Assembly (NCBI GenBank): GCA_016235345.1
Contig: JACRLG010000008.1
Span: forward strand, 1 to 50,551
Source: Deltaproteobacteria bacterium
GTDB lineage: Bacteria > Desulfobacterota > Desulfobacteria > Desulfobacterales > Desulfatibacillaceae
DNA: 50,551 nt
Direction of reading: 5' to 3'
Positions 8,317-43,680 of this stretch are shown here, piece after piece. A model generated the notes under the pieces. That model did not search any database. It was not told the DNA's origin and was given only the letters and a program-made list of their open reading frames with translations. Position numbers and translations under genes: made by a program. How positions within the stretch are numbered: the stretch's first letter is position 1; every line of letters begins with the position of its first letter.

Positions 8317-8474
8317 GGCCCGTTGAAAAAAGATGGATATGAAGCCTGCCTACCTGCCTGAATATTGGCGATGAAGAGCGAGGGTTGGCTGGCTTGCCCG
8401 GGGAGGCCGTGTACTAAATGTACATAACGAGCCGGCCAAGCCAGCCTGACACAGTCGCGTTTTTAGACAGGCTG
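8317..8474 (-). repeat. Dispersed hairpin element, copy 1
   Basis: This fills the gap between two convergent genes. Read on the minus strand it begins one base after the stop of the cyclic-nucleotide/PilZ gene. The inner stem pairs GGCTGGCTTG (8387-8396) with CAAGCCAGCC (8437-8446), and the apex is GTAC-TAAAT-GTAC (8411-8423). The conserved outer arm on the gene-proximal side reads GCCTGTCTAAAAACGCGA. The far end has CTTCATCG and then diverges, with TTTTTTCAACGGGCC at its limit. It belongs to the same family as the elements at 29536, 30697, 32459, 41609 and 43532. Confidence 0.8.
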
Positions 8475-10482: not shown

Positions 10483-12924
10483 TCAAAGCATTGAAACAGG
10501 ATCAACATCCAGATACGCACTGGCCTTCCCGCCCGTACAGCGCCTTCCTATGGCCCCGGAGAGCGCGGCCAGAAATTCCCGGAAGCTCCTTGTCTCGTAG
10601 CCCTTCAAAAGCATCTGCCAGCGGTAGACGTTGGAAAGCCTCGAAATGGGCGCGGGCACCGGCCCCAGAACCACTATCCTGCCGCCCGCGTTCGCGGCGA
10701 GCACCCGGGCGTCCTCCCCTATAACAGAGGCGGTTTCCTCGGCCTTCGCCAGCTCCTTCGACATTATCCTCACCTGGGCAAGGCGCGTAAAGGGCGGATA
10801 CCCAAGCCCTTTGCGCAGGGAAAGCTCGGTGCCGTAAAAACCTTGGGCGTCCGCCGTTCTTGCGGCCTTGATGGAAAAATGGTCGGGGCTATAGGTCTGG
10901 ATTATCACGGTTCCGGGTTTTTCCCCCCTGCCAGCCCTTCCCATCACCTGGCTCACAAGCTGGTAGGTGCGCTCTCCGGCCCTAAAATCCGGAAAACTGA
11001 GGGACAAGTCGGCGCACACCACCCCCACAAGGGTTATTCCGGGAAAATCGTGGCCCTTGGCAACCATCTGGGTGCCTATTACGATATCCAGTTCACCCTT
11101 TCGCAGACCCGTCAAAACCGACACCAGGGCGTTTTTTTTTGCGGTGGTGTCCCGGTCGAGCCGCGCCAGACGGGCTTCGGGAAAGAGCTTGGAAACCGCC
11201 GCCTCCAGTTTTTCCGTGCCCACCCCCACAAGCTGAATCTTCTGGCTGCGGCAGTTGGGGCAGCCTGCGGAAAGCTCGTGGCAATACCCGCAGTAATGGC
11301 AGAGGCAGGAGTTCTGGTCCTTGTGATAGGTGAGGCTTACATCGCAGTTGACGCACCTTATAGCCCCGCCGCAGTCGGCGCAGAGGGCGAGATTGGAATA
11401 GCCCCGGCGGTTCAGGAACAGGAGTACCTGCTCCTTGCGGGCCAGCGTTTCGGTGATGGCGGAAACCAGCGGGCCGGAAAGAAGGGCCCCGTGCTTTCCC
11501 GCCTTGTTGAACCGAAGGTCCACCAGCCGCACTTCCGGGAAGGGGCGATCCTCCACCCTTTTTGTAAGGGCGATTTCCACGGACTTCCCGTTCTGCGCGT
11601 TATGGAGGCTCACCACCGAGGGCGTGGCCGAGCCCAGAACCGCCACGGCCCCGGAAAAACGCGCCCGCACCACCGCAAGGTCGCGGGCGTTGTACCGAAG
11701 GCCGCTTTCCTGCTTGTAGCTTTCGTCGTGCTCCTCGTCCACCACGATGAGGCCCAGGTTCGCGTGAGGGGCGAAGATGGCCGAACGCGCACCCACTGTA
11801 ACCGACACCTCGCCGCGTGCGGCCCTTATCCACTGGTCGTGGCGCTCGCCTTCGCTAAGCCCCGAATGGTAAACCGCCACCTTCTCGCCGAAACGCGCCC
11901 GAAAGCGCCTTTCCGTCTGGGTGATAAGGGCTATTTCCGGCACCAGCACCAGGGCCGAGAGCCCCTTTTCAACGGCCATGCGGGCCGCTTCCAGGTACAC
12001 CTCGGTCTTGCCGCTTCCGGTGACGCCGTTCAGAAGAAAGCAGGAAAAACCGTTTCCCAGCGCCGCCCCCACCTTTAAAAGCGCGGCCTTCTGCTCGTCC
12101 ATGAGCGCGGGAGGGCCGCAATCAGGTGTTACCTCGCTTCCGAATGGGTCCCGGTAAACGGGCTTGTCAAAGGTCACGATTTCGCCCGCGCCCGCCATGT
12201 CGGCAAGATGGCGGCCCACTGACGGGACCAGGATTTTCAAATCCCGCAGGAGCATGGCCCCGCGTTCGGAAAGGATGGAAAGCGCCCTGTGGCGGCCCTT
12301 GAGTCTTGGGGATGCGGAGGAGACGGGAACAAGGCCAAGCACCCAGGACTCGGTCTTGGGGCCGAAGCGGTCCGAGACGGCCACGGGCCCGCATTTCACA
12401 AGGCCCCGGTCAAGGAGCCGGAAAACAGAGGCCCGCCTTTTCCGGTCGTCCCCGCAAAAATCGGAGAGCAGAACCGCGCCGGATTTTTCCAGAGCCTCAA
12501 GTACGCCCTGTTCCGGGCCGTCCAAACCGGATTTGGCCGCCCCGCCAACATTATCGGAAACGCAGACCTCAAGGGCCGCCCCGCAGTCGGCCCCGGTGGG
12601 CAGGGCCTCCTTGATTACGAGCCCCGTGGGATAAAAATAGTAGTCGGCCACCCAGCGGAAAAAGGGGATCATTGATTCGGGAAAAAGTGGACAGGGGTCC
12701 AAGACGTCGGCCACGGGCTTCAGGCTAAAACCTTCCACGGGTTCGCCCGGCCCCAGGACATAGCCCATTGACGCCCCCCGCCCAAGTGGGACCAGCACGC
12801 GCTTTCCGGCCAGGGCAAGCCCCGAAAGGCTCTCCGGCACCGAATAGGTGAGGGTGCGGGCAATGTTGGCCGCCACCGCCACCTCAACCAGTTCCGCATT
12901 GTCGAAAGACAAGGGCCGCCTCAC
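10483..12924 (-). CDS. priA: Primosomal replication helicase PriA
   Basis: An 813-residue superfamily 2 helicase that restarts stalled replication forks. The N-terminal DNA-binding domain (about 1-110) is followed by the helicase core: Walker A GVTGSGKT near residue 300, the DEAH-type box as DEEHDESYK, and LGSATPS. A Cys-rich zinc-binding insertion near residues 515-555 contains CADC, CVNC, CHYCGYC and CPNC. The later ATPase block GTQMVAKGHDF and VMGRAGRG are intact. The start is GTG at 12924, giving a GTGA overlap with the stop of the upstream aminopeptidase gene. Confidence 0.95.
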   Translation of the reverse strand: MRRPLSFDNAELVEVAVAANIARTLTYSVPESLSGLALAGKRVLVPLGRGASMGYVLGPGEPVEGFSLKPVADVLDPCPLFPESMIPFFRWVADYYFYPTGLVIKEALPTGADCGAALEVCVSDNVGGAAKSGLDGPEQGVLEALEKSGAVLLSDFCGDDRKRRASVFRLLDRGLVKCGPVAVSDRFGPKTESWVLGLVPVSSASPRLKGRHRALSILSERGAMLLRDLKILVPSVGRHLADMAGAGEIVTFDKPVYRDPFGSEVTPDCGPPALMDEQKAALLKVGAALGNGFSCFLLNGVTGSGKTEVYLEAARMAVEKGLSALVLVPEIALITQTERRFRARFGEKVAVYHSGLSEGERHDQWIRAARGEVSVTVGARSAIFAPHANLGLIVVDEEHDESYKQESGLRYNARDLAVVRARFSGAVAVLGSATPSVVSLHNAQNGKSVEIALTKRVEDRPFPEVRLVDLRFNKAGKHGALLSGPLVSAITETLARKEQVLLFLNRRGYSNLALCADCGGAIRCVNCDVSLTYHKDQNSCLCHYCGYCHELSAGCPNCRSQKIQLVGVGTEKLEAAVSKLFPEARLARLDRDTTAKKNALVSVLTGLRKGELDIVIGTQMVAKGHDFPGITLVGVVCADLSLSFPDFRAGERTYQLVSQVMGRAGRGEKPGTVIIQTYSPDHFSIKAARTADAQGFYGTELSLRKGLGYPPFTRLAQVRIMSKELAKAEETASVIGEDARVLAANAGGRIVVLGPVPAPISRLSNVYRWQMLLKGYETRSFREFLAALSGAIGRRCTGGKASAYLDVDPVSML

Positions 12925-14126
12925 TCGTTCATTGCGAACTGGCCGTTTTCGTAGATGATCTTCTTCTCGCCTGAAACAAGCGTTGCCGTGACGGTCTTTT
13001 TTTCGGTGTTTACAAGGTCCCAGTGAAGGGCCGAGTCGTTGAATCCGAGTTCCTTCTTGAGTGCCGGGGTAAATTGCTCCTGGTCGCCTGAAAAGGTGTC
13101 CGCGTAGGAGGAGCCAAGGGCCACGTGGCAGTTGCCGAAGCGCCCGCCGAAGTTCTCGTCGAAAAGGGTGTTGGCCATAAACCTGTCTATGCGGGAAAAT
13201 CGGCGGTCAGTAAGGGAGAACTCGCCCAGGCGGCAGGCCCCGGCGTCCATCTCCACCTGCTTTTTCAGGAATTCCTCGCCCTCGTCGGCGCGGGCATCGA
13301 TCACCCGGCCCTTCTCGAACACCAGGGTGACGCCCTTTATGTAGTTGCCGTAGCGGAAGGAGGGCTGGTCCGCGTGATAGACGCCTTCCGTGCCGTTATA
13401 ATCGGGCGAGATGAAAACCTCGAAACTGGGTATGTTGTGGCCGGACACGCCTGCCCAGCGCCGCTGTTTTCCTGGGGTGACGGTAAGGTCGCAGCGCTCG
13501 CTTTTTACTTGCAGGGATTCGATCTCCATCCCGTTCAGCCAGGCCTTCAGCTTTTGGGTCTTGTCGAAGATCCCCTTCCAGCGCGAGACCGGGTCCGGGT
13601 CGTCCAGAAAGCAGGCCGCCCGCCACTGCCTTCCGTAGGCCGCAAGGGTGGTTTTGGCCTGGGCCGCAAGGGCCTTGGTGGGCACTATCCCAAGGGTCCA
13701 GCCGAAGGAGCCCTTCTGCTCATGCCGGTCCAGAATGTCCCGCAAGGGCTTTCGGGAAAGGGACGCCGCCGAAAGAAGATCGGGCGGCGAGTCTTTCAGG
13801 TGGGTGAGGGATTCCGGGGCGATAAGGTAGATGGAGCCTTGGATTCCCTCGTAAAGCTCGGTCTCTCCGGGCGGGATGAAGGCCGCCTGGGCCTTGTCGG
13901 CCACGGAAAAGAACTGTCGTTCGAGGCCCGCCGTGGGCATGAGGCGCATGACCGGGTGAAATCCGTGTTCCAGCACCTTTTTCTGGACAACCTCGGCCAC
14001 CGAAAGCGCCGGAAGATCGAACCGCACCAGTATGATGTCGCCTTTGGCGTACTTTTCGGTGCGGGCGGTGAAAAGCCCCCACAGAAGCACGTCGGCGTAT
14101 CGTTCCATGATCTCTTTTGAAAGCAT
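12921..14126 (-). CDS. M29-family (thermophilic-type) aminopeptidase
   Basis: A 401-residue metallopeptidase of family M29 (aminopeptidase T/PepS/AmpS type). It should be a cytosolic enzyme that removes N-terminal residues using two metal ions. Family signatures are HNIPSFEVFISP (the catalytic Glu region), the stretch GEFSLTDRRFSRIDRFMANTLFDENFGG, the metal-ligand region GNCHVALGSSYAD, and LHWDLV near the C-terminus (HxD). The length is typical. Its stop overlaps the priA start in the same operon. A promoter-like sequence lies just upstream. Confidence 0.85.
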   Translation of the reverse strand: MLSKEIMERYADVLLWGLFTARTEKYAKGDIILVRFDLPALSVAEVVQKKVLEHGFHPVMRLMPTAGLERQFFSVADKAQAAFIPPGETELYEGIQGSIYLIAPESLTHLKDSPPDLLSAASLSRKPLRDILDRHEQKGSFGWTLGIVPTKALAAQAKTTLAAYGRQWRAACFLDDPDPVSRWKGIFDKTQKLKAWLNGMEIESLQVKSERCDLTVTPGKQRRWAGVSGHNIPSFEVFISPDYNGTEGVYHADQPSFRYGNYIKGVTLVFEKGRVIDARADEGEEFLKKQVEMDAGACRLGEFSLTDRRFSRIDRFMANTLFDENFGGRFGNCHVALGSSYADTFSGDQEQFTPALKKELGFNDSALHWDLVNTEKKTVTATLVSGEKKIIYENGQFAMNE

Positions 14127-23071: not shown

Positions 23072-23785
23072 ATGGAAGACCGTTATATGGCTTACGCACA
23101 GCCGAGAACCCTGGACAAGGTGACAATCAACGCTTTCGTGAGAAGCGTTTACAACTGGATGGCAGTCGGCCTTACCCTTACGGCAGTGGTGGCCTTTCTG
23201 ACCGCCTCAAGCCCTGCCGCGCTGAAATTCATTTTCGGCAACCAGCTGGTGTTTTTCGGCCTCATAATCGCCGAACTGGGCATGGTGCTGTATTTTTCAG
23301 CCCGCATATACAAGATGGACGCAGGCACCGCCACCGGGGTCTTTCTGGGGTATTCGGCCCTAAACGGCCTCACCCTTTCGGCTATTCTGATTGTTTACAC
23401 CGGCAGCTCGATTTTCTCCACCTTCCTGGTCTGCGCAGGAACCTTCGCGGCGGTAAGCGTTTACGGCTACACCACCAAGAAGGACCTTACTTCCATGGGT
23501 TCCTTCATGATGATGGGGCTTTTCGGCATTATCATCGCCTCGGTGGTGAACATTTTCCTCAAAAGCTCCGCCATGGAGATGGTCATAAGCTACATAGGCG
23601 TGTTCGTGTTCGTGGGACTCACCGCCTACGATACCCAGAAGATCAAGAACATGGCCGAGACCCAGCCCCTGGAAGCAGGGTCGGGTGCCATGCGCAAGGC
23701 GGCGCTTTTCGGCGCTCTCAATCTTTACCTTGATTTCATCAACCTTTTCCTGATGCTTCTTCGCATCATGGGCGACCGCAGGTAG
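23072..23785 (+). CDS. Bax inhibitor-1/YccA family membrane protein
   Basis: A 237-residue integral membrane protein with seven hydrophobic helices. It has the BI-1 family pattern: an N-terminal NAFVRSVYNWMAVGL stretch, GVFLGYSALNGLTLS in the middle, and the conserved FVGLTAYDTQKIK near residue 185. Bacterial members (YccA, YbhL, BsYetJ) are pH-sensitive calcium-leak channels or modulators of FtsH proteolysis. AGGAGG lies ten bases upstream of the ATG. A strong terminator follows 45 bases after the stop. Confidence 0.9.
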   Translation: MEDRYMAYAQPRTLDKVTINAFVRSVYNWMAVGLTLTAVVAFLTASSPAALKFIFGNQLVFFGLIIAELGMVLYFSARIYKMDAGTATGVFLGYSALNGLTLSAILIVYTGSSIFSTFLVCAGTFAAVSVYGYTTKKDLTSMGSFMMMGLFGIIIASVVNIFLKSSAMEMVISYIGVFVFVGLTAYDTQKIKNMAETQPLEAGSGAMRKAALFGALNLYLDFINLFLMLLRIMGDRR

Positions 23786-23830
23786 GACGCCCAAAGGCAC
23801 AGCAAGGCATTACCGGCCCGCTGCGAGGCA

Positions 23831-23873
23831 ACCATGCCGGATTCAGGCGCAAGCAGGAATCCGGCATGGTTTT
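23831..23873 (+). terminator. Rho-independent terminator after the BI-1 family gene
   Basis: A 14-bp perfect stem pairs ACCATGCCGGATTC (23831-23844) with GAATCCGGCATGGT (23857-23870), has a 12-base loop and runs into TTT. It separates the rpoH-to-BI-1 block from the next gene. The GGATTC and GAATCC core resembles the palindromic repeat at 29838. Confidence 0.75.
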
Positions 23874-23915
23874 GAAACGGCAAAGCCAGGGGATTGCAAC
23901 CAGGACAGGCGGCCA

Positions 23916-25145
23916 ATGAGCATAATAGAGACGTTACAGGGCCGGGGCGTGGTTTTCCCCGATCCCGGCGCGGTTTACGTCGCTCCCGAAGTGGACCCTA
24001 TGCGGATTCTTCCCGGAGCGGTTCTCCACCCGTCAAGCCGCATCACCGGGAAACGCACCCTCATAATGGAAGGGGCCGAGATCGGCTCCGAAGGCCCGGC
24101 TGTGGTGCATGACTGCGCCGTTGGGCCGGGCGCACGCCTTAAGGGCGGGTCCTTTTCCGGCTCGGTTTTTCTTTCCGGGGCAAGCGTCGGCCCCGCCGCC
24201 CACGTGCGGCCCGGAACCATATTCGAGGAGGGCACTTCGGCGGCCCATGCTGCGGGGGTCAAGCAGACCATCCTTTTTCCCTGGGCCACCCTGGGAAGCC
24301 TGGTCAATTTCTGCGACTGCCTGATGAGCGGGGGAACAGGCCCGAAAAACCACTCCGAGGTGGGATCAAGCTACATTCACTTCAACTTCACCCCACAGCA
24401 GGACAAAGCCACGGCGTCCCTTATAGGCGACGTCCCGCGCGGTGTCATGCTTCGGGAAAACCCCATTTTTTTGGGCGGCCAGGGCGGGCTTGCTGGGCCG
24501 TGCAACATAGCCTACGGAAGCGTGATAGCCGCCGGAACCGTGTGGAGGCGGGATATCATCGAGGAGGACCGCCTCTGGGTCACCGGCCCTTTAAGCCGCA
24601 GCGCGGGGCTAAAGTTCACGCCCGGCCTTTACAAGTCCATCGCGGGCATAGTGGAGCACAATCTCGGCTACCTGGGAAACCTCGTGGCCCTTTTCAACTG
24701 GTACGTCCACGTTCGCAGCCTCTTTTTCGCCACGGAGCCCGAAAAGGCCCTTCACGCGGCCCTGGTCGAAACATGCAGGGAGGCTGTAACCGAACGCCTG
24801 AAACAAATGGCCCTTCTTGCCTCCCGGATGCCCAGATCCATAGCCCTTTACCGGGCCGCAGAAGGCAACCCGCCCGAACACCTGCTTTCCCAGAAGCAGG
24901 AACTTTTCGACAAGTGGCCAATCGTGGAGGAAGGAACAAGGGCGCGCCTGGACGAGACCGCAGACCAGCCGCCGGAAGCCTTTCTGGAAGCCGTGGCCGG
25001 GGCGAAGGAAGCCTCATCCGGCGACTACCTGAAGGCCGTGCTTCTTCTCGATGATAAAGACAGGACGGCTGGAACCGCCTGGCTTGACGGCATAGTGGCC
25101 GAAGTCATGGCGATGGGCAGGGAGGTTCTTTCCTCTTTCGCCTGA
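23916..25145 (+). CDS. Left-handed beta-helix protein related to sugar-phosphate nucleotidyl/acyltransferases
   Basis: A 409-residue protein. The N-terminal half (about 20-215) shows hexapeptide-repeat character (for example ILPGAVLHPSSRITGKRTLI and AVGPGARLKGGSFSGSVFLS) and a stretch recalling GlmU-type proteins (KQTILFPWATLGSLVNFCD, then GPKNHSEVGSSYIHFNF). The C-terminal half is alpha-helical with no motif I recognise. No N-terminal nucleotidyltransferase domain is present, so a full GlmU activity is unlikely; acyltransfer or a scaffold role is possible. It stands 41 bases ahead of the ebo-like cluster and may be co-transcribed with it. Confidence 0.6.
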   Translation: MSIIETLQGRGVVFPDPGAVYVAPEVDPMRILPGAVLHPSSRITGKRTLIMEGAEIGSEGPAVVHDCAVGPGARLKGGSFSGSVFLSGASVGPAAHVRPGTIFEEGTSAAHAAGVKQTILFPWATLGSLVNFCDCLMSGGTGPKNHSEVGSSYIHFNFTPQQDKATASLIGDVPRGVMLRENPIFLGGQGGLAGPCNIAYGSVIAAGTVWRRDIIEEDRLWVTGPLSRSAGLKFTPGLYKSIAGIVEHNLGYLGNLVALFNWYVHVRSLFFATEPEKALHAALVETCREAVTERLKQMALLASRMPRSIALYRAAEGNPPEHLLSQKQELFDKWPIVEEGTRARLDETADQPPEAFLEAVAGAKEASSGDYLKAVLLLDDKDRTAGTAWLDGIVAEVMAMGREVLSSFA

Positions 25146-25186: not shown

Positions 25187-25432
25187 ATGCCTCCGACACC
25201 CATAGTATCGCCCAAGTCAGCCCCGGAGCTTTTGAACATGTATTACCTGGACGTGCGGTGCGCCATTCTTGAAACCGCCGCAGCCCTGGACCGCATGGAC
25301 CGCGCCCCGGACGCCCCAAAAACCCTTTCGGACAAGCGCCGGGAAAATCTCAAAAAGGCCCTTTCCGTGTGCCTTTCCGATGACGCCGACAACCGGGTGG
25401 AGAGGATTCTCGTCCTCCTGTCCGAAACATAG
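25187..25432 (+). CDS. Small helical protein leading the ebo-like cluster
   Basis: An 81-residue soluble protein, probably all alpha-helical, with the core RCAILETAAALDRMDRA and a C-terminal helix VERILVLLSE. The ATG has AAGGAGA at good spacing, and the stop lies eight bases before the TatD-like gene, so it is likely real and co-translated. I do not recognise a family. It is too short to be a normal EboA but takes the place of eboA at the head of the cluster. Confidence 0.65.
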   Translation: MPPTPIVSPKSAPELLNMYYLDVRCAILETAAALDRMDRAPDAPKTLSDKRRENLKKALSVCLSDDADNRVERILVLLSET

Positions 25433-25440
25433 GGGGAATT

Positions 25441-26277
25441 ATGAAAGTAATAGAACCCCACATCCACATGATCGCCCGCACCACCCAGGACTACGAGCGC
25501 ATGGCCCGCATGGGCACGATCGCCTGCTGCGAGCCCGCCTTCTGGGCTGGCTACGACCGCACATCGGCTGCCGCCTTCCACGACTATTTCACACACATCA
25601 CCACCTTCGAGCCCACGCGGGCGGCCCAGTACCTTATAAAGCACTACTCCTGGATATGCTTGAACCCCAAGGAGGCCGACGATCTTGAGCTTGCCAGGGA
25701 AGTTTTGGCCATCATGCCGGAATTTCTCGATAAACCCACGGTTCTCGGAATCGGCGAGATCGGCCTCAACAAAAACACCAGAAACGAGATGAAGGTTTTC
25801 GAGGAACAGGTGGAGATGGGCCTTTCGGGCAAGCGCCTGATATGGATACACACACCCCACCTTGCCGACAAGTTGAAGGGCACGAAGATGATGCTGGATT
25901 ATCTCAAAGGCCACGGCGGCGTGGACCCCTTCCGGGTGGTTTTCGACCACGTTGAGGAGCACACGGTGGGGATGATCAGGGAGGCTGGTTTCTGGACCGC
26001 CATGACCATCTACCCCATTACCAAGAACTCGGCCACACGCGTTGTTGACACCGTGGAGCGCCACGGGCTTGAGCGGATGATAGTGGACGCCTCCGGCGAC
26101 TGGGGGCCAAGCGACCCCGGAACCCTCCACGACGCCATTTTCGAGATGAGAAAGCGCGGGCACCGGGAAGAGGACGTTGAGACCCTTTTCTACAACAACC
26201 CGTGCTACTTTCTGGGCCAGAACGAAAAATTCGAGCCCCGCCCCACAAGGCCCATGAAGGAGGCCTGGGGACTGTGA
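25441..26277 (+). CDS. TatD-like metal-dependent hydrolase (EboB-like)
   Basis: A 278-residue TIM-barrel hydrolase of the TatD/amidohydrolase superfamily. Metal-ligand candidates are H7 and H9 (EPHIHM), the Glu in GIGEIGLN near residue 105, His in WIHTPH and FDHVEEH, and Asp in VDASGDW. Unlike DNase TatD proteins it lies directly before a UbiA-family gene and a phosphodiesterase-like gene, the context of EboB in the ebo metabolite operons. The substrate is unknown. It starts at the ATG at 25441 with GGGGG upstream; its stop overlaps a possible GTG start of the next gene. Confidence 0.7.
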   Translation: MKVIEPHIHMIARTTQDYERMARMGTIACCEPAFWAGYDRTSAAAFHDYFTHITTFEPTRAAQYLIKHYSWICLNPKEADDLELAREVLAIMPEFLDKPTVLGIGEIGLNKNTRNEMKVFEEQVEMGLSGKRLIWIHTPHLADKLKGTKMMLDYLKGHGGVDPFRVVFDHVEEHTVGMIREAGFWTAMTIYPITKNSATRVVDTVERHGLERMIVDASGDWGPSDPGTLHDAIFEMRKRGHREEDVETLFYNNPCYFLGQNEKFEPRPTRPMKEAWGL

Positions 26278-26324
26278 CCGGGGAAAACGGAACAGGCTCC
26301 CCGGAAGAACAGGGTGGGCGATCG

Positions 26325-27215
26325 ATGGCCTGGATGCAGCTTCTGCGGCTCCCCAACCTTTTAACGGTTCCGGGCGACGCAATTGCAGGGTTCGCGGCGG
26401 CAAGCACCTTAACGGGCGCGACCCTGGATTCCGGGCTGGCCCTTGCCATCGGCGCGGGCCTTTGCCTTTACATGTTCGGGCTTGTGACCAACGACGTGCT
26501 GGACCTTGCCGAAGACCAGCGGGACCGGCCCTCGCGCCCGCTTCCTTCGGGGCTTGTTCCCGTGACCCACGCCTATGCGGCGGCGGCGGCCCTGGGGCTT
26601 TCCGGCGTCGTCCTGGCTTTTTTCGCAGGGCCGCTGGCAGGCTATACCGCCCTGGCCCTTTCCTGCGCCGTGGTTCTGTATAACGCCCTTTTCAAAAATA
26701 TCCCCGTGGCCGGCCCGCTTGTCATGGGCCTGTGCAGGGGCCTCAACGTGATGCTTGGAGCCGCAGCCACCCTGCCCGACTCTGCTTTTTCAACGCCGGT
26801 CCTTCTGTCCGCCCTTCTGGTTTCCTGCTACATAGCGGCTCTCACGGCAATCGCCGCAAGGGAGACGGAAGCCTTCCGGGGCCGGATGATAAGATTTCTG
26901 CCAGTTTGCGCCGCCGCCCTGGGCCTTGCCGCCATCTGGAGCTTTCTTCAGCCCCCGGAGGGCGACGACATTGTTCCGGCGGGAGTGCTCACGGCATGTG
27001 CGCTTCTGTGGCCATCCTTCATGGCCACCAGCCTTTCGGACGGAGCGCCACCCCAAATAATTCAGCAGGTCATAGGCGGCCTCATAAGGAACCTTCTTTT
27101 TCTGGAAGCCGCCCTTGTGGCTTTTTTCCGGCCCGATCTTCTGTACCTGTCAGCGGCCCTTCTGCTGGCCTTTCCCATAAGCCGCCGGATTTCAAGGCGC
27201 TTTTACGCGAGTTAG
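26325..27215 (+). CDS. UbiA-family prenyltransferase (EboC-like)
   Basis: A 296-residue membrane protein of the UbiA superfamily with about eight to nine helices. The first Asp-rich motif is intact: NDVLDLAEDQRDRPSRPLPSG near residue 60. This motif binds prenyl diphosphate through magnesium. The second Asp-rich region near ARETEAFRG is weak. In ebo operons EboC is the matching UbiA-like member. I start at the ATG at 26325, which has AGGGTGG upstream; a GTG at 26274 overlapping the previous stop (GTGA) would add 17 residues. It ends three bases before the next gene. Confidence 0.75.
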   Translation: MAWMQLLRLPNLLTVPGDAIAGFAAASTLTGATLDSGLALAIGAGLCLYMFGLVTNDVLDLAEDQRDRPSRPLPSGLVPVTHAYAAAAALGLSGVVLAFFAGPLAGYTALALSCAVVLYNALFKNIPVAGPLVMGLCRGLNVMLGAAATLPDSAFSTPVLLSALLVSCYIAALTAIAARETEAFRGRMIRFLPVCAAALGLAAIWSFLQPPEGDDIVPAGVLTACALLWPSFMATSLSDGAPPQIIQQVIGGLIRNLLFLEAALVAFFRPDLLYLSAALLLAFPISRRISRRFYAS

Positions 27216-27218
27216 ATC

Positions 27219-28511
27219 ATGACGAAGAACTTTTTGCCCAAAAAGCTCCTGGTGGTCCAGGCGGCGGCCTTGTCCCATCCTCCAGGCGTTTTCGGCTTTT
27301 TGCGGTCGGGCCTGATGGAGACCGTCTTCCCCGCCGTAACCTGCACGGCCTCAGCCAGTTTCCGCACGGGGCTCGCCCCTTCCGAACACGGCATTGTGGG
27401 CAACGGCCATTTTTTTAAAGCACTTTCGCGGCCCATGTTCTGGGAGCAGTCGGCAAGGCTTATAAACGGCCCGCGAATATGGGAGGATTTCCGCAAAAAT
27501 GGCGGAAAGGTTGGCATGTTCTTCTGGCAGCAGAGCCTTGGGGAGGCCCTTGACATGGTACTCTCCCCGGCCCCCATCCACAAGCACCACGGCGGCATGA
27601 TCGAAGCCTGCGCCGCAAAGCCCGCCGATCTTTACGACCGGGTGACCAAGGCCGTGGGTCGCCCTTTTCGCCTGCGCCACTACTGGGGGCCTCTCGCGTC
27701 AGCCAAGGCCGGAGACTGGATAGCGGAAGCCGTGAGCTGGATAATGGCCCAAAAGGACTTGGCCCCGGACCTTTGCCTCTGTTACCTGCCCACCCTTGAT
27801 TACGACCTCCAGCGCTTCGACCCCAAAGGCCCAGCGGCGCGCAAGGCCGCCCGTTTTCTCGACTCCCAGCTTTCGATGCTGATGGACGCCGCCGAGGCAA
27901 AGGGTTACGACGTTGTCGTCTTCGGCGATTACGCCATAGCACCCGTTTCCGGCGCGGTTTATCCCAACCGGGTTCTTTACGATTCCGGGCTTTTCGCAAC
28001 TCGCTCAGTAAAGGGGATGCTGTATCCCAATTTCCACGAAAGCCGCGCCTTTGCGGTGGTTGACCACCAGATCGCACACGTTTACGTGCAAAACGCCGCC
28101 GATCTGGCTGAAACCGCGCGGCTGCTGTCAAATCTTGAAGGCGTGAAAAGCGTGTTTGATAAAAACGCCCAGAAAGAGGCCGGAATCGCCCACGAAAATT
28201 CAGGCGATCTCGTTCTTGTGTCAACGTCAGACAAATGGTTCGCCTACCCCTGGTGGACGGACAAAGGCGAGGCCCCGGACTACGCCACCCACGTGGACAT
28301 CCACCAGAAGCCGGGCTACGACCCCTGCGAGCTTTTCTTCGGCTGGCCCCCTGTTTCGGTGGGCCAGAACCCGGGCCGCATAAGGGGCTCACACGGCATC
28401 GCGGGGCCAAATCGCAAGGTGTTCTGGGGCTCCACCATCAGTTTTCCCAAAGACCCGGAAGACCTTCTGGAGCTTGCGGCGATGGTCAGGGAGCATCTGA
28501 AACAAATCTGA
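27219..28511 (+). CDS. Alkaline-phosphatase-superfamily phosphodiesterase-like protein (EboF-like)
   Basis: A 430-residue protein of the type I phosphodiesterase/nucleotide pyrophosphatase superfamily. Near residue 35 it has the TVFPAVTCTASASFRTGLAP stretch, in which a Thr acts as nucleophile in the family. The late metal-site regions CYLPTLDYDLQRFDP and VFGDYAIAP and the C-terminal RGSHGI are visible. It lacks a signal peptide, so it is probably cytoplasmic. It lies three bases after the UbiA-like gene; together they match EboC and EboF. The phosphate-ester substrate is unknown. Confidence 0.7.
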   Translation: MTKNFLPKKLLVVQAAALSHPPGVFGFLRSGLMETVFPAVTCTASASFRTGLAPSEHGIVGNGHFFKALSRPMFWEQSARLINGPRIWEDFRKNGGKVGMFFWQQSLGEALDMVLSPAPIHKHHGGMIEACAAKPADLYDRVTKAVGRPFRLRHYWGPLASAKAGDWIAEAVSWIMAQKDLAPDLCLCYLPTLDYDLQRFDPKGPAARKAARFLDSQLSMLMDAAEAKGYDVVVFGDYAIAPVSGAVYPNRVLYDSGLFATRSVKGMLYPNFHESRAFAVVDHQIAHVYVQNAADLAETARLLSNLEGVKSVFDKNAQKEAGIAHENSGDLVLVSTSDKWFAYPWWTDKGEAPDYATHVDIHQKPGYDPCELFFGWPPVSVGQNPGRIRGSHGIAGPNRKVFWGSTISFPKDPEDLLELAAMVREHLKQI

Positions 28512-28536
28512 TACCTTACACCCAAGGAGACACCCC

Positions 28537-29535
28537 ATGCAGCCGGACCCCAAGCGCATAATGGACCTTGCCTGCGCGTTTTACGATTCCTGCGTGCTTT
28601 TTTCAGCCATTGATACGGGCCTTTTCGCGGCGCTTGCCGAAACCGGCGGCGCGGACGCCAAAACCCTGGCGGAAAAGCTCAAATGCGATCTGCGCGGCAT
28701 AACTCTATTGAGCGACGCGGCTGTCGCCCTTGGGCTTATTGAAAAGACCGGCGACACCTACAAAAACACCTTGGAAACATCCATCTTCCTGGTTCCCGGA
28801 AGCCCCGGAGACCTCTCGCGGGCCATTCGCTACAACCGGGACGTCTACCCGGCCTGGGGAAAGCTGGCCGATCTCGCCCGCACAGGCAGTCCCGTGGAGC
28901 GGCCCGAAATCCACTTGGGCGAGGATGCCGAGCGAACCCGCGCCTTTGTTCTGGCCATGCACGGAAGGGCAATGGGCATAGGCAGGGCTCTTGTCCCAAA
29001 CATGGACTTAAAAGGCTGCAAACAGCTTCTGGACATAGGAGGCGGACCCGGCACCTACTCGGTGCTCCTGGCACAGGCCAACCCGGAGCTTAATTCCACT
29101 GTTCTGGACCTTCCGGGCGTGGCCGCCATAGCGGCTGAGCTTATTGCCTTCCAGAACATGGCGGAACGCGTGAAGACCCTTCCGGGCGACTATCACACGA
29201 TCCCCTTTCCTGCCGGAAACGACGCGGTTGCCATTTTGGGCGTCCTCCACCAGGAGAACCCGGATTCCATAAAGGACATCCTGGCCCGCGCATACGAGAG
29301 CCTGAACCCCGGCGGGGTCATCTACATAATGGACATGATGACCGACGCCACTCACACCAGCCCAAAGTTTTCCGCCATGTTCGCCGTAAATATGGCTTTA
29401 ACCACCCAAAACGGCTGGGTTTTTTCGGACGCAGAGCTTTCCGGCTGGCTTACGGGCGCAGGCTTTACCGGAGTCGAAATCAGGCCCCTGCCGCCCCCGA
29501 TGCCGCACTGGCTTGCATCAGCAACAAAAGCGTAG
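28537..29535 (+). CDS. SAM-dependent O-methyltransferase (acetylserotonin/hydroxyneurosporene type)
   Basis: A 332-residue class I methyltransferase. The N-terminal winged-helix/dimerisation domain (about 1-120) is typical of O-methyltransferase family 2 (CrtF/TcmN-like). The SAM-binding motif is DIGGGPGTYSVLLA near residue 167, followed by the acidic loop TVLDLPGV and the catalytic region around GVLHQENPDS. It is the last gene of the ebo-like cluster, 25 bases after the phosphodiesterase-like gene, with AAGGAGA before its ATG. A methyltransferase of this type is not part of the standard ebo set. A family hairpin element begins one base after its stop. Confidence 0.8.
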   Translation: MQPDPKRIMDLACAFYDSCVLFSAIDTGLFAALAETGGADAKTLAEKLKCDLRGITLLSDAAVALGLIEKTGDTYKNTLETSIFLVPGSPGDLSRAIRYNRDVYPAWGKLADLARTGSPVERPEIHLGEDAERTRAFVLAMHGRAMGIGRALVPNMDLKGCKQLLDIGGGPGTYSVLLAQANPELNSTVLDLPGVAAIAAELIAFQNMAERVKTLPGDYHTIPFPAGNDAVAILGVLHQENPDSIKDILARAYESLNPGGVIYIMDMMTDATHTSPKFSAMFAVNMALTTQNGWVFSDAELSGWLTGAGFTGVEIRPLPPPMPHWLASATKA

Positions 29536-29660
29536 CGGCTGTCCAAAAACGCGAATCGCGGTGTCAGAGCAAAGCGGGCGGGGCATCATGTACGAAAAGT
29601 ACTATTCCTCCCCGCCCGCTTCACTCTTCCTTGCGCTTCATCGTTTTTGATCAGCCTTTT
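29536..29660 (+). repeat. Dispersed hairpin element, copy 2
   Basis: It begins immediately after the methyltransferase stop. The outer arms are GGCTGTCCAAAAACGCGAA and TTCATCGTTTTTGATCAGCC. The inner stem pairs AAGCGGGCGGGG (29572-29583) with CCCCGCCCGCTT (29610-29621), 12 bp perfect. The apex is GTAC-GAAAA-GTAC (29590-29602). It is about 93 percent identical to the copy at 41609. Confidence 0.85.
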
Positions 29661-29928: not shown

Positions 29929-30690
29929 ATGACAGACGCAACTTCCCACAATCACGAAGAATCTTTCCTGGACGACGACGGGCGGTGGCGGGTGAACCTG
30001 CCCGTTTTCGAGGGGCCGCTGGACCTTCTGTACCACCTCATCAAAAAAAACGAGGTGGACATCTACGACATCCCCATTGCGGAAATCGCAGATCAGTACC
30101 TTGCTGCGGTTGAGCTTATGAAAGAGCTCAACATGGACGTGGCGGGCGAGTTTCTTGTGATGGCCGCAACCCTAATGCAGATAAAAAGCAAGATGCTCCT
30201 GCCCCGGCACGAGGAAATCGAGGGGCTTGAGGAAGACCCGCGCCTCATGATCGTACGGCCCCTTGAGGAGTACATAAAAATCAAGGAGGCGGCCAAGAAA
30301 ATCGCAGAAAGGCCCCTTCTGGACGACATGGTTTTCGCCCGCGCTCCAGACCCGGACGAAACCACCGTGGCCCGTGGCGATGAAATCATCGCAGCCGGGC
30401 TTTTCGAGCTGATGGACGCCTTCGCTAAACTCCTTTCCCGCTCCAGCGAGGAAAATGTCGTCACCCTCACCGCCGAAACGGTCTCGGTGCGGGAGCGCAT
30501 GGTGGAGCTTATGGACCTTCTGGCCCTTCACCAGACGCTAAGTTTCGACGAGCTTTTTACCGGCCTTCCCACCCGCACCGATCTTGTGGTCACCTTTCTT
30601 GCGATTCTGGAAATGGCAAAAATTTCAGCAGTACGCATAGTCCAGCATGTTCAGACGGGCCTGATCCGCCTCTTTCCCCAAGGCGCGTGA
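29929..30690 (+). CDS. scpA: Segregation and condensation protein A
   Basis: A 253-residue kleisin-type subunit that joins SMC and ScpB for chromosome condensation. The N-terminal signature VFEGPLDLLYHLIKKNEVDIYDIPIAEI is unmistakable (residues about 25-52). A mid-section (VMAATLMQIKSKMLLPR) follows, and the C-terminal winged-helix end VTFLAILEMAKISAVRIVQ. scpB is not seen in the window. AGAGG lies upstream of the ATG at suitable distance. A hairpin element follows six bases after the stop. Confidence 0.93.
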   Translation: MTDATSHNHEESFLDDDGRWRVNLPVFEGPLDLLYHLIKKNEVDIYDIPIAEIADQYLAAVELMKELNMDVAGEFLVMAATLMQIKSKMLLPRHEEIEGLEEDPRLMIVRPLEEYIKIKEAAKKIAERPLLDDMVFARAPDPDETTVARGDEIIAAGLFELMDAFAKLLSRSSEENVVTLTAETVSVRERMVELMDLLALHQTLSFDELFTGLPTRTDLVVTFLAILEMAKISAVRIVQHVQTGLIRLFPQGA

Positions 30691-30696
30691 CCATTG

Positions 30697-30830
30697 CGCC
30701 TGCGTAAAAACGCGAACTGCTGTGTTGCACTTCTAAGGCAATTCCATCACGTACAAAAAGTACGCGTACTCATTGCCTTTTCGTGCGCCTTGCATTTCAT
30801 CATTTTTACACAGGCTTGGCATAGAGCCTA
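30697..30830 (+). repeat. Dispersed hairpin element, copy 3
   Basis: It lies six bases after the scpA stop. The outer arms are GCCTGCGTAAAAACGCGAA and TTCATCATTTTTACACAGGC. The inner stem pairs AAGGCAAT (30735-30742) with ATTGCCTT (30772-30779), and the apex is GTAC-AAAAA-GTAC (30751-30763). It ends in AGGCT...AGCCT followed by TTTTT, a terminator-like hairpin also seen in the copy at 32459. Confidence 0.8.
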
Positions 30831-30898
30831 TTTTTATCGAACAGATATTTCTTTGTGTTTTTCCCTTCCATTCCCCCCGGTCCTGATAGGAATTTTTC

Positions 30899-32282: not shown

Positions 32283-32458
32283 GTTGCGGAAGGCCGCCCG
32301 GTTTGTGGAAGCCTGGAAGGGTTTCGCATTTGCCGATGTTTCGCGTAAAAACCGTTCAGGCTGCGATTGACTTTCGGGCCGCCCGGCCTCAGTATTGGCC
32401 GTTGGCCGACCTTTCTCGATTTTTTGACTTTAACCTCATGTTTCGGCAATATCGTTAG

Positions 32459-32608
32459 CAGCCCGTTGAAAAAGGCTGTATGCGCAGCCTGGATAAAAAC
32501 GATGAAGTGCAAGGAGTGCGAAAAACCAATGAGTAAGCGTACTTAATGTACGTGACGAAATTGGCTTTGAAGCGCGACAAAGCAATTCGCGTTTTTAAAC
32601 AGGCTGAT
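32459..32608 (-). repeat. Dispersed hairpin element, copy 4
   Basis: This copy is upstream of a plus-strand gene rather than directly after a stop codon. Read on the minus strand its arms are CAGCCTGTTTAAAAACGCGAA and TTCATCGTTTTTATCCAGGCTG. The apex is GTAC-TTAAT-GTAC (32539-32551). The inner stem includes CCAAT (32526-32530) with ATTGG (32560-32564). It ends with AGGCTGCGCATACAGCCTTTTT, a terminator-like hairpin, and then CAACGGGCTG. Its inner stem is the weakest of the six. Confidence 0.75.
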
Positions 32609-32623
32609 AGGGAAAAGAACCTG

Positions 32624-40855: not shown

Positions 40856-41608
40856 ATGAAAAAAATCGCCCTGTCGGTAATTTTTCCGGCGGCCCTGGCA
40901 TTGATCCTGGCCGCCTGCGCCACGGCCTACGAGGCCAAGCCCCTTCCCTTCAAGGCCCCTTCGGCCTACGCCAACAGGGTTGAGGTAGCCGGGGCCCAGG
41001 TGGCGGCGGAAGCCTTCACGGACCCACAGAAGGCTAAGGAAGTCTTCGGTTTCGACGTTCGGGGGGCAGGATTCCTTCCGGTTCAGGTGGTTTTCGACAA
41101 CAGGGGGGACCATCGCATAAGGGTGGATGAGGCCCAGACCTTTCTGGAGGACGAGGCCGGAAACCTCTGGCCCATACTGGCCAAGGACCTGGCCGAGGAG
41201 CGCGCGGCGCGGTTTTCCGAAGGCAGGGCCATGATGAAGGAAGGCGCCAAGGACAGCCTGTACGGGGCCATCGGCGGAGCCCTGATCGGGGCGGCGGTGG
41301 GCATCGTCACGGGCGAGGGCGTGGGCGCAACGGCTGGCAAGGGAGCCGCAGTGGGAGCCGCCACCGGGGCCACCATGGGTGGGGCTTCCAAGTTGGGAGA
41401 CCGGGAGGCCAGGAACGCCATCGTGAGCGACCTTCACTCGAAAAGCCTGGAAAACCGGGTGGTTCCGCCCCAGGGACTTGCCTTTGGCGTGATCTTCTTT
41501 CCTGGCGAGGCCAAGACGGCCAAGGCCCTGAGGCTGAGACTGATTGACCTGGACGCCAGGACCGACCATGCGGTCACCATCTCACTCACCCCGCAACCGG
41601 CCGGTTGA
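40856..41608 (+). CDS. Lipoprotein with glycine-zipper segment
   Basis: A 250-residue lipoprotein (lipobox LAAC, C21). A central Gly/Ala-rich stretch (about 138-182) has the repeated GAxxGAxxG pattern of a glycine zipper, with a possible membrane-inserting role. The remainder contains FLPVQVVFDNRGDHRIRVDE, a beta-rich segment. AAGGAG lies upstream. It follows the MCE operon by 36 bases and may be its fifth gene. Its function is unknown. A hairpin element starts directly after its stop. Confidence 0.65.
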   Translation: MKKIALSVIFPAALALILAACATAYEAKPLPFKAPSAYANRVEVAGAQVAAEAFTDPQKAKEVFGFDVRGAGFLPVQVVFDNRGDHRIRVDEAQTFLEDEAGNLWPILAKDLAEERAARFSEGRAMMKEGAKDSLYGAIGGALIGAAVGIVTGEGVGATAGKGAAVGAATGATMGGASKLGDREARNAIVSDLHSKSLENRVVPPQGLAFGVIFFPGEAKTAKALRLRLIDLDARTDHAVTISLTPQPAG

Positions 41609-41731
41609 AGCCTGCCCAAAAACGCGAATCGCTGTGTCAGAGCAAAGCGGGCGGGGCATCATGTACGAAAAGTACTATTCCTCCCCACCCGCTTCACTCA
41701 ACCTTAGCGCTTCATCGTTTTTGAACAGGCT
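41609..41731 (+). repeat. Dispersed hairpin element, copy 5
   Basis: It starts at the first base after the lipoprotein stop. The outer arms are AGCCTGCCCAAAAACGCGAA and TTCATCGTTTTTGAACAGGCT. The inner stem pairs AAGCGGGCGGGG (41645-41656) with CCCCACCCGCTT (41683-41694), with one G-T step. The apex is GTAC-GAAAA-GTAC (41663-41675). The gap to 41827 has no gene. Confidence 0.85.
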
Positions 41732-41827
41732 TCATGTCCAGCCGTCTTGGACGCATTGTTCAACAATGGGGCCGTCTGAAGGACGCGCAATTTTACGCGG
41801 CGTCCCGGCCCTTGAAAATCACCCCGA

Positions 41828-43531: not shown

Positions 43532-43680
43532 CAACCTGTTGCAAACGGCACGCCGCGCAGCCTGATCAAAAACGATGAAATGCAAGGAAGCTGAGCGGCG
43601 CGGGGAGGAATAATACTTTTCGTATATGACGACCCGCGCCGCGAAACCTGACACAGCAGTTCGCGTTTTTGGACAGGCGC
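43532..43680 (-). repeat. Dispersed hairpin element, copy 6
   Basis: Read on the minus strand it begins at the first base after the nadB stop. The outer arms are GCGCCTGTCCAAAAACGCGAA and TTCATCGTTTTTGATCAGGCTG. The inner stem pairs GCGGCGCGGG (43595-43604) with CCCGCGCCGC (43633-43642). The apex is ATAC-TTTTC-GTAT (43613-43625), a compensated version of the usual GTAC/GTAC pair. The end has CAACAGGTTG, weakly related to the ends of copies 1 and 4. Confidence 0.85.

Follow-up and report, generated by a model that had tools for sequence, protein, structure and literature searches.

Do five tightly packed genes on a deltaproteobacterial contig form a short metabolic pathway of their own, or are they one part of a known system whose remaining genes lie elsewhere in the genome? 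The genes occupy positions 25187-29535 of contig JACRLG010000008.1 from a member of the Desulfatibacillaceae. This stretch of 50,551 nucleotides, hereafter the window, is the entire contig C8 of an assembly of 4.01 megabases in 36 contigs (97.36% complete, 0.44% contamination). A preliminary description had interpreted the unit as a reduced cluster related to the ebo operons, lacking eboD and eboE, extended by a CrtF-like methyltransferase and serving a distinct pathway. The genome, however, carries a complete EboG-type ebo gene set at two loci, eboG-B-C-F with the methyltransferase gene in the window and eboD-E on another contig. The window represents the known ebo system in split form with a linked methyltransferase, and the most interesting part of the analysis, the replacement of EboD by inositol-phosphate synthase (MIPS) in relatives, lies outside it.

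A complete ebo gene set at two loci

The two genes absent from the window stand side by side on contig C13, with eboD at C13:140210-141358 (514.3 bits with NF004852, cut-off 333) and eboE at C13:141388-142464 (419.5 bits with NF035939, cut-off 250). NF004852 was taken as the EboD model from its place in the ebo operon of L011 and from its eboE neighbour here; a separate AroB-like gene on C31 reaches 199 bits with the same model. L011, from a Desulfobacteraceae genome, is a full ebo operon in the order C-G-B-F-D-E, in which the NF004852 protein scores 514 bits and EboE 441 bits with NF035939, and in which EboB and EboF are 77% and 57% identical to those of the window. In the sister genome (L008, that is G003:C97; one other genome of the genus was compared) the order of the five genes is identical, their proteins are 51-86% identical and eboE lies directly upstream of eboG. 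Because the order is repeated there, the five-gene arrangement is not due to chance. The EboB-based scan yielded 58 loci with 40-86% identity, and the genomes of 40 of these, together with our own, were surveyed for EboE, EboD and MIPS (41 genomes; the 18 omitted loci were mostly from Lentisphaerota and Kiritimatiellota). EboE exceeded its cut-off in 30 of the 41 genomes, and EboD likewise in 30.

The tight unit itself was confirmed, as all five open reading frames (ORFs) lie on the plus strand with gaps of 3 to 47 base pairs (bp), and the TatD, UbiA and phosphatase-superfamily proteins proved to be relatives of EboB, EboC and EboF. The lack of eboD and eboE was correctly described for the window and does not hold for the genome. 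A distinct shorter pathway, suggested by a window that holds neither gene, is contradicted by the adjacent eboD and eboE on C13, both over curated cut-offs, and by the eboE directly ahead of eboG in the sister genome; this interpretation was rejected for this genome unless C13 is contamination, and we consider it extremely improbable. It had also been proposed that membership in non-Ebo families, or scattering of the same genes in relatives, would speak against an ebo cluster. The families are those of Ebo proteins. The genes are rearranged or partly scattered in many relatives, which leaves the identification intact, since most such genomes carry EboD and EboE at another locus. A single locus is the usual, though not a defining, arrangement, from which the present set, divided between C8 and C13, departs; split ebo gene sets are reported in the accessible part of PMC5133447. 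At L077 the eboD and eboE frames share 4 bases if TTG is taken as the start of eboE. The same locus contains, at 12187-13689, a gene resembling hydroxysqualene dehydroxylases and desaturases (HpnE 219.6 bits, cut-off 283), about 1.7 kilobases (kb) behind eboE and after a gene that appears phosphohexomutase-like by eye.

Apparent replacement of EboD by MIPS in relatives

The gene order at L015, L016 and L017 comprises MIPS, a YdjY-domain protein, a squalene-cyclase-like protein, two xylose-isomerase-like triosephosphate isomerase (TIM) barrels, EboC, EboG and EboB, with EboF next at L015 (where the contig end cuts it) and L017, not at L016. The MIPS of L017 matches PF07994 with 178 bits and PF01658 with 117 bits. 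L089 (G125) and L093 (G267) have MIPS, one TIM barrel, EboC and EboF consecutively, close to EboG-EboB. For the short TIM barrels of L017 and L089 the best model is that of the keto-sugar epimerase IolO, whose cut-off they do not reach. Seven of the 41 surveyed genomes contain MIPS (PF07994), and none of these is among the 30 that have EboE. EboD and EboE are both missing over cut-off in eight genomes of this survey, six of which carry MIPS (G014-G018 and G022, all deltaproteobacterial, four of them named Desulfobacterota), the two without it being G037 and G042. The seventh MIPS genome, G039, has EboD and not EboE; G020 and G032 have neither a full EboE over cut-off nor MIPS. G014 provides weaker support for the replacement, because its MIPS is located on a contig other than EboB's, a longer one, and scores far above the operon copies (326 versus 145-184 bits).

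The same pattern was visible in a survey of 291 genomes of the class, 12 of which carry EboB at E <= 1e-20. EboE exceeds the cut-off in five of the 12 (G000, which is the genome of the window, G003, G007, G093 and G213), none of them with MIPS, and among the remaining seven MIPS is present in six (in G142 only as a fragment of 173 amino acids) and not in G237. The single-contig genomes G250, G253 and G267 combine EboB and MIPS with no EboD or EboE over cut-off; MIPS lies about 3 kb from eboB in G250 and G253, and one row with EboC was seen for G267 only. A short TIM barrel directly ahead of EboD, at G090:C12:3634-5543 and G142:C1:623419-625325, is a mixed form between both ebo variants. Two Streptomyces plasmids (NZ_CP108303 and NZ_CP109116) encode MIPS, an SCO3242 prenyltransferase, a TIM epimerase, EboA, EboB, EboE and EboF, and a search confined to the ebo stretch found no EboD in it.

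For 45 genomes (the 41 surveyed plus G007, G125, G253 and G267; G250 and G142, among others, are outside the tree), MIPS was negatively associated with EboE (0 of 10 MIPS genomes versus 31 of 35 others, Fisher 3e-7) and with EboD (1 of 10 versus 30 of 35, Fisher 2e-5). Set against descent on the EboB tree, the association amounts to one independent pair on supported branches and six on all branches. Gene position and the presence-absence pattern support the replacement of EboD by MIPS; the tree-corrected test does not. Since two unrelated cyclitol-forming enzymes occupy one slot, a prenylated cyclitol as the product is supported, and the occurrence of the replacement in two distant phyla offers a direct handle on what the ebo genes make. 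No report of it was found in the open-licence literature, and the main texts of PMC5133447 and PMC6282210 do not contain the word 'inositol'. YdjY-domain and short squalene-cyclase-like proteins were noted in or near the MIPS-type operons at L015, L016, L017, L022, L088 and L093, and those read have starts that resemble signal peptides by eye.

A methyltransferase linked to the ebo genes

The last gene of the unit (28537-29535, plus strand, preceded by AAGGAGA) encodes a methyltransferase of 332 amino acids dependent on S-adenosylmethionine (SAM), of the Methyltransf_2 type with a dimerisation domain (PF00891 92.8 bits, PF08100 50.5 bits). The best seven or fewer candidates were scored in each of the 291 genomes, and among the matches listed orthologues occur in four: G000 itself, G003 (75% identity), G007 (65%) and G125 (62%). 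The SAM motif DxGGGPG and the stretch GVLHQE, located where the catalytic His is expected, are kept in all four. BchU is the nearest NCBIfam model; with the BchU/CrtF model TIGR02716 the protein reaches 65.2 bits against a cut-off of 276.1, and by this curated cut-off it is not BchU/CrtF. The preliminary description was right in grouping a methyltransferase with the ebo genes. The gene follows eboF in G000 and G003, the order in G007 is eboF-eboD-eboE-methyltransferase, and thus three of the four orthologues adjoin a core ebo gene. The neighbours of the fourth, in G125, are YdjY-like and squalene-cyclase-like homologues of proteins from other ebo operons.

The gene could have come to lie downstream of eboF merely by chance. 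Methyltransf_2 proteins are common, with matches at E <= 1e-20 in 224 of the 291 genomes, the orthologue of G125 is on a different contig from eboB, and three of the four carriers are of one family and do not represent four independent events. This explanation has to be set against an orthologous group (62-100% identity, the next-best sequence among the matches listed reaching 38%) that is confined, among those matches, to carriers of EboB: all four fall within the 12 EboB genomes, an outcome with a chance of 1.7e-6 if genomes were independent, which the shared family of three shows they are not. The group moreover occurs in three settings: it follows eboF or eboE, or it adjoins the YdjY-like and squalene-cyclase-like genes seen in MIPS-type operons. 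The methyltransferase is linked to ebo, and a chance neighbourhood, which we regard as improbable, was rejected for this distribution.

Proposed pathway and its alternatives

From the gene identities, the completeness of the set in the genome, the linkage of the methyltransferase, the pattern of EboD and MIPS in relatives and the altered site of EboF, all of which the analysis shows, we infer every reaction step, the product and its role as follows. EboD would convert a sugar phosphate into a cyclitol by cyclisation, which EboE, a TIM barrel, and EboB, a metal-dependent amidohydrolase, would then remodel. EboC would add a prenyl chain within the inner membrane, and the methyltransferase would O-methylate the product. 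EboG may serve as a small helical adaptor, and EboF may bind a phosphorylated or lipid-linked intermediate rather than act as a standard phosphodiesterase. The pathway would yield a prenylated, methylated cyclitol held in the membrane, which would aid the passage of metabolites into the periplasm, as ebo does for the scytonemin monomer in Nostoc. The available part of PMC6282210 describes Nostoc mutants in which the ebo genes were needed for export of this monomer and mentions a link of ebo to nematode repellence; by analogy, periplasmic export of a metabolite intermediate could be the role here. We consider it rather probable that the genome holds a complete, split EboG-type ebo system which, together with the methyltransferase, makes a prenylated O-methylated cyclitol for periplasmic metabolite passage. 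A more detailed version is put forward only tentatively: the product may be a prenylated cyclitol lipid whose ring comes from EboD or from a diverged MIPS, in Desulfobacterota short inosose-epimerase-like TIM barrels may stand in for EboE, the lipid may be O-methylated in the lineage of the window by a dedicated ebo methyltransferase, and a metal-poor EboF may handle a lipid-linked intermediate without phosphodiester hydrolysis.

Several points weigh against the proposed cyclitol pathway. The EboC of the window scores under the curated cut-off, whereas another true EboC, that of Aureibacter, passes it. EboD was not found in G003, an assembly 83% complete, though EboE is present there, so completeness of the set is claimed for the genome of the window and not for the sister genome. 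As eboD-E is on a different contig, its co-expression with eboG-B-C-F is only presumed. The accessible parts of the papers found name neither substrate nor product for the six Ebo proteins save in one prenyltransferase assay (PMC9235831), and the acceptor in that assay was an aromatic compound of the quinoline type, not a cyclitol. The ebo genes span many phyla, and even algal plastids, yet the papers found do not give their product, and none announcing one in its title or the opening of its abstract was found in the open-licence literature. The linked methyltransferase indicates a mass shift to be sought in this lineage.

The product could instead be a prenylated aromatic or quinoline-type secondary metabolite, with the methyltransferase capping a phenolic hydroxyl and no cyclitol involved. 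Methyltransf_2 enzymes often act on phenols, BchU, the nearest model of the present enzyme, is a ring methyltransferase, and the NCBIfam name of the EboD model, 3-dehydroquinate synthase, is one of the aromatic pathway, a name that also counts among the points against a cyclitol. Moreover, the relative Ubi-297, the EboC of a Maribacter ebo cluster, farnesylates quinolines such as 8-hydroxyquinoline-2-carboxylic acid, an activity seen in Escherichia coli membrane fractions and cultures (PMC9235831, as far as its text was available). According to the same part of that source, Ubi-297 did not accept phenols or catechols, which tells against this alternative. No aromatic-biosynthesis gene was recognised among the neighbours scanned (23072-25145 and 29929-30690), and the occurrence of EboD-type cyclases and MIPS in the same slot points to a cyclitol. 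An aromatic product is regarded as unlikely in comparison with the prenylated cyclitol.

Properties of the four Ebo proteins of the window

The first gene, eboG (25187-25432, plus strand), is preceded by AAGGAGAT and encodes the 81-residue protein to which the preliminary description gave no ebo identity. In the ebo operons of two Deinococcus plasmids a small ORF separates eboD from eboB; a profile built from relatives of the 81-residue protein matches this ORF with 65.2 and 64.4 bits and does not match Azospirillum EboA (-1.0 bits). An assignment as EboA was rejected on these grounds. The protein is EboG, which characterises ebo operons of the Deinococcus type and which the accessible part of PMC5133447 names without a function. 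Relatives detected with tblastn are present at 23 of the 58 loci, and at each of these the gene precedes eboB in the same orientation. Pfam and NCBIfam profile searches gave no match. The AlphaFold2 model has a mean predicted local distance difference test (pLDDT) of 90.2, with helices at 12-39, 43-46, 50-62 and 70-79, and its comparison with the PDB (Foldseek) returned nothing at E <= 0.001 and 13 hits at E <= 10.

EboB (25441-26277, plus strand, 278 amino acids) matches PF01026 TatD_DNase with 31.8 bits. A function as TatD DNA exonuclease was rejected, the score with model TIGR00010 (21.1 bits) being far under the cut-off of 206. The protein clusters with EboB of annotated ebo operons, as expected of an EboB-type amidohydrolase, and the sole solved chain matched at E <= 0.001 is 3guw, AF_1765. 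All 71 rows have H7, H9, E106, H137 and H170, and 70 have D220 (one gap), positions that presumably provide metal ligands. Conservation of the six makes it probable that EboB is an active metalloenzyme. In a quick midpoint-rooted EboB tree, the window groups with Deinococcus, opposite six plasmid records (EboA is annotated next to EboB in five of them) across a supported split; the accessible part of PMC5133447 likewise divides EboB into EboA-type and EboG-type sides. Sixteen rows from Kiritimatiellota and Lentisphaerota also fall on the side of the EboA-annotated plasmid records.

Some EboB loci deserve separate mention. The EboB of L091 (G007:C280) is only 51% identical, with a stop read through within the match, and groups weakly with Deinococcus (Shimodaira-Hasegawa-like approximate likelihood-ratio test 81, long branch) despite the 65%-identical methyltransferase of that genome; parts of the system in G007 may have mixed histories. 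At loci of the Lentisphaerota type (L021, L027, L034, L037-L045, L048, L061), EboB lies by a divergent ATPase gene, MoxR-like by eye. Most of these have no EboC nearby, and most of eight genomes searched have EboE and EboD elsewhere. At loci of the Kiritimatiellota type (L052-L060, L062-L065), EboB is 40-43% identical, and in most the next genes encode a protein of about 1000 amino acids (kinase-like by eye), one of about 257 amino acids and a UbiA prenyltransferase.

EboC (26325-27215, plus strand; ATG 26325 is the best start candidate) is a UbiA-type membrane prenyltransferase (PF01040 70.7 bits). It scores about alike with the EboC model NF035940 (146.7 bits, cut-off 250) and the SCO3242 model NF045897 (157.5 bits, cut-off 260), and so lies outside the curated SCO3242 family. 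In the same search, Aureibacter EboC (342.5 bits) and Streptomyces SCO3242 (349.4) passed, EboC of two Deinococcus operons reached 106.9 and 96.3 bits, and EboC of Azospirillum and Ketogulonicigenium gave no match at E <= 1e-25. Because EboC of these Deinococcus, Azospirillum and Ketogulonicigenium operons is also below it, the curated cut-off takes in only part of the family. The first Asp-rich motif is present as NDxxDxxxDxxDRPxRPLPSG; the second was not recognisable by eye, and a Glu is kept at its place in ebo rows. In a tree with six UbiA paralogues of the same genome, long branches disturb the topology and only the pair of the window and L008 is firm.

EboF (27219-28511, plus strand, 430 amino acids; PF01663 144.8 bits) shares 33-38% identity with EboF from seven annotated plasmid operons. 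From its model (pLDDT 82.4, predicted template-modelling score 0.87), which superimposes on 7n1s (Z 31.1, root-mean-square deviation 2.8, 327 aligned) and on 1ei6 (Z 30.2), the fold can be confidently predicted to be that of phosphodiesterases and phosphonoacetate hydrolases. Active-site positions were placed by profile alignment, all three on 1ei6 and the last two on 3szy, in 17 distinct rows from Desulfobacterota, Lentisphaerae, Verrucomicrobia, Deinococcus, Azospirillum, Aureibacter, Streptomyces and Ketogulonicigenium; the fragments of L015 and L022, shorter than 300 amino acids, were excluded, and L067, identical with contig L008, was not counted separately. In all 17 rows, the Asp of the first-strand Asp-Gly is replaced by Ala or Val, the His of DYxxH by Gln, and the Asp-His pair by Asp/Glu-Tyr, while Thr, one Asp and the late His are retained. 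The replaced positions are, we assume, the metal-binding residues of the solved enzymes. None of the 17 rows has the two-metal active site of PF01663 phosphodiesterases and nucleotide pyrophosphatases/phosphodiesterases. Since three usual metal-ligand positions are replaced, EboF is probably not an ordinary phosphatase or phosphodiesterase, and the altered site speaks against its proposal as a phosphate-ester hydrolase in the accessible part of PMC5133447.

Comparison with known ebo systems

The closest parallel is the Deinococcus EboG-type operon (NZ_CP097151, NZ_CP140100), whose genes belong, judged by annotation and position, to the same families B, C, D, E, F and G. Its small protein is encoded immediately ahead of eboB, and its EboB is 53-55% identical. 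It is a single operon in the order D-G-B-E-C-F, whereas in the genome studied G-B-C-F and D-E are apart and the methyltransferase is added. The EboA-type operons of Nostoc, Bacteroidota, Azospirillum and others share the families EboB to EboF, but carry EboA in place of EboG, and EboB of the six plasmid records lies across the supported split of the tree. With the Streptomyces MIPS/SCO3242 operon, the genome of the window has EboB, EboE, EboF and a UbiA prenyltransferase in common; that operon differs in that its stretch holds MIPS but lacks EboD, EboA takes the place of EboG and no methyltransferase is annotated. The MIPS-type operons of Desulfobacterota (L015-L017, L089, L093) share EboG, EboC and EboB (74-77% identical), with EboF in the same row at L015, L017, L089 and L093. 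They have MIPS and short xylose-isomerase-like TIM barrels for EboD and EboE, and those of L015-L017 differ further by their YdjY-domain and squalene-cyclase-like proteins. One cyanobacterial plasmid combines EboB and 3-dehydroquinate synthase with no other ebo gene annotated in the stretch, the PLSDB gene tables being incomplete.

Further features of the locus

The records of the 58 EboB loci are named Deltaproteobacteria/Desulfobacterota, Planctomycetes, Lentisphaerae, Kiritimatiellae and Verrucomicrobia, among others. Ribosome-binding sequences are clear ahead of the first gene, eboG, and the last, that of the methyltransferase. Promoter and terminator scans returned site numbers about equal to those of shuffled sequences (2 versus 1.2 and 9 versus 7.3). 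A dispersed repeat family of about 100-150 bp, with copies roughly 71-93% identical and intergenic-looking where viewed, is represented in the window at 8323-8473, 29535-29658, 30698-30836, 32456-32616, 41604-41733 and 43535-43680. The copy at 29535-29658 lies immediately 3' of the methyltransferase gene, and the family is also found at L077, L002, L003, L006 and L007. A direct repeat of 161 bp (99% identical) occupies 49815-49975 and 50391-50551; its second copy reaches the contig end and lies within a long open frame on the minus strand.

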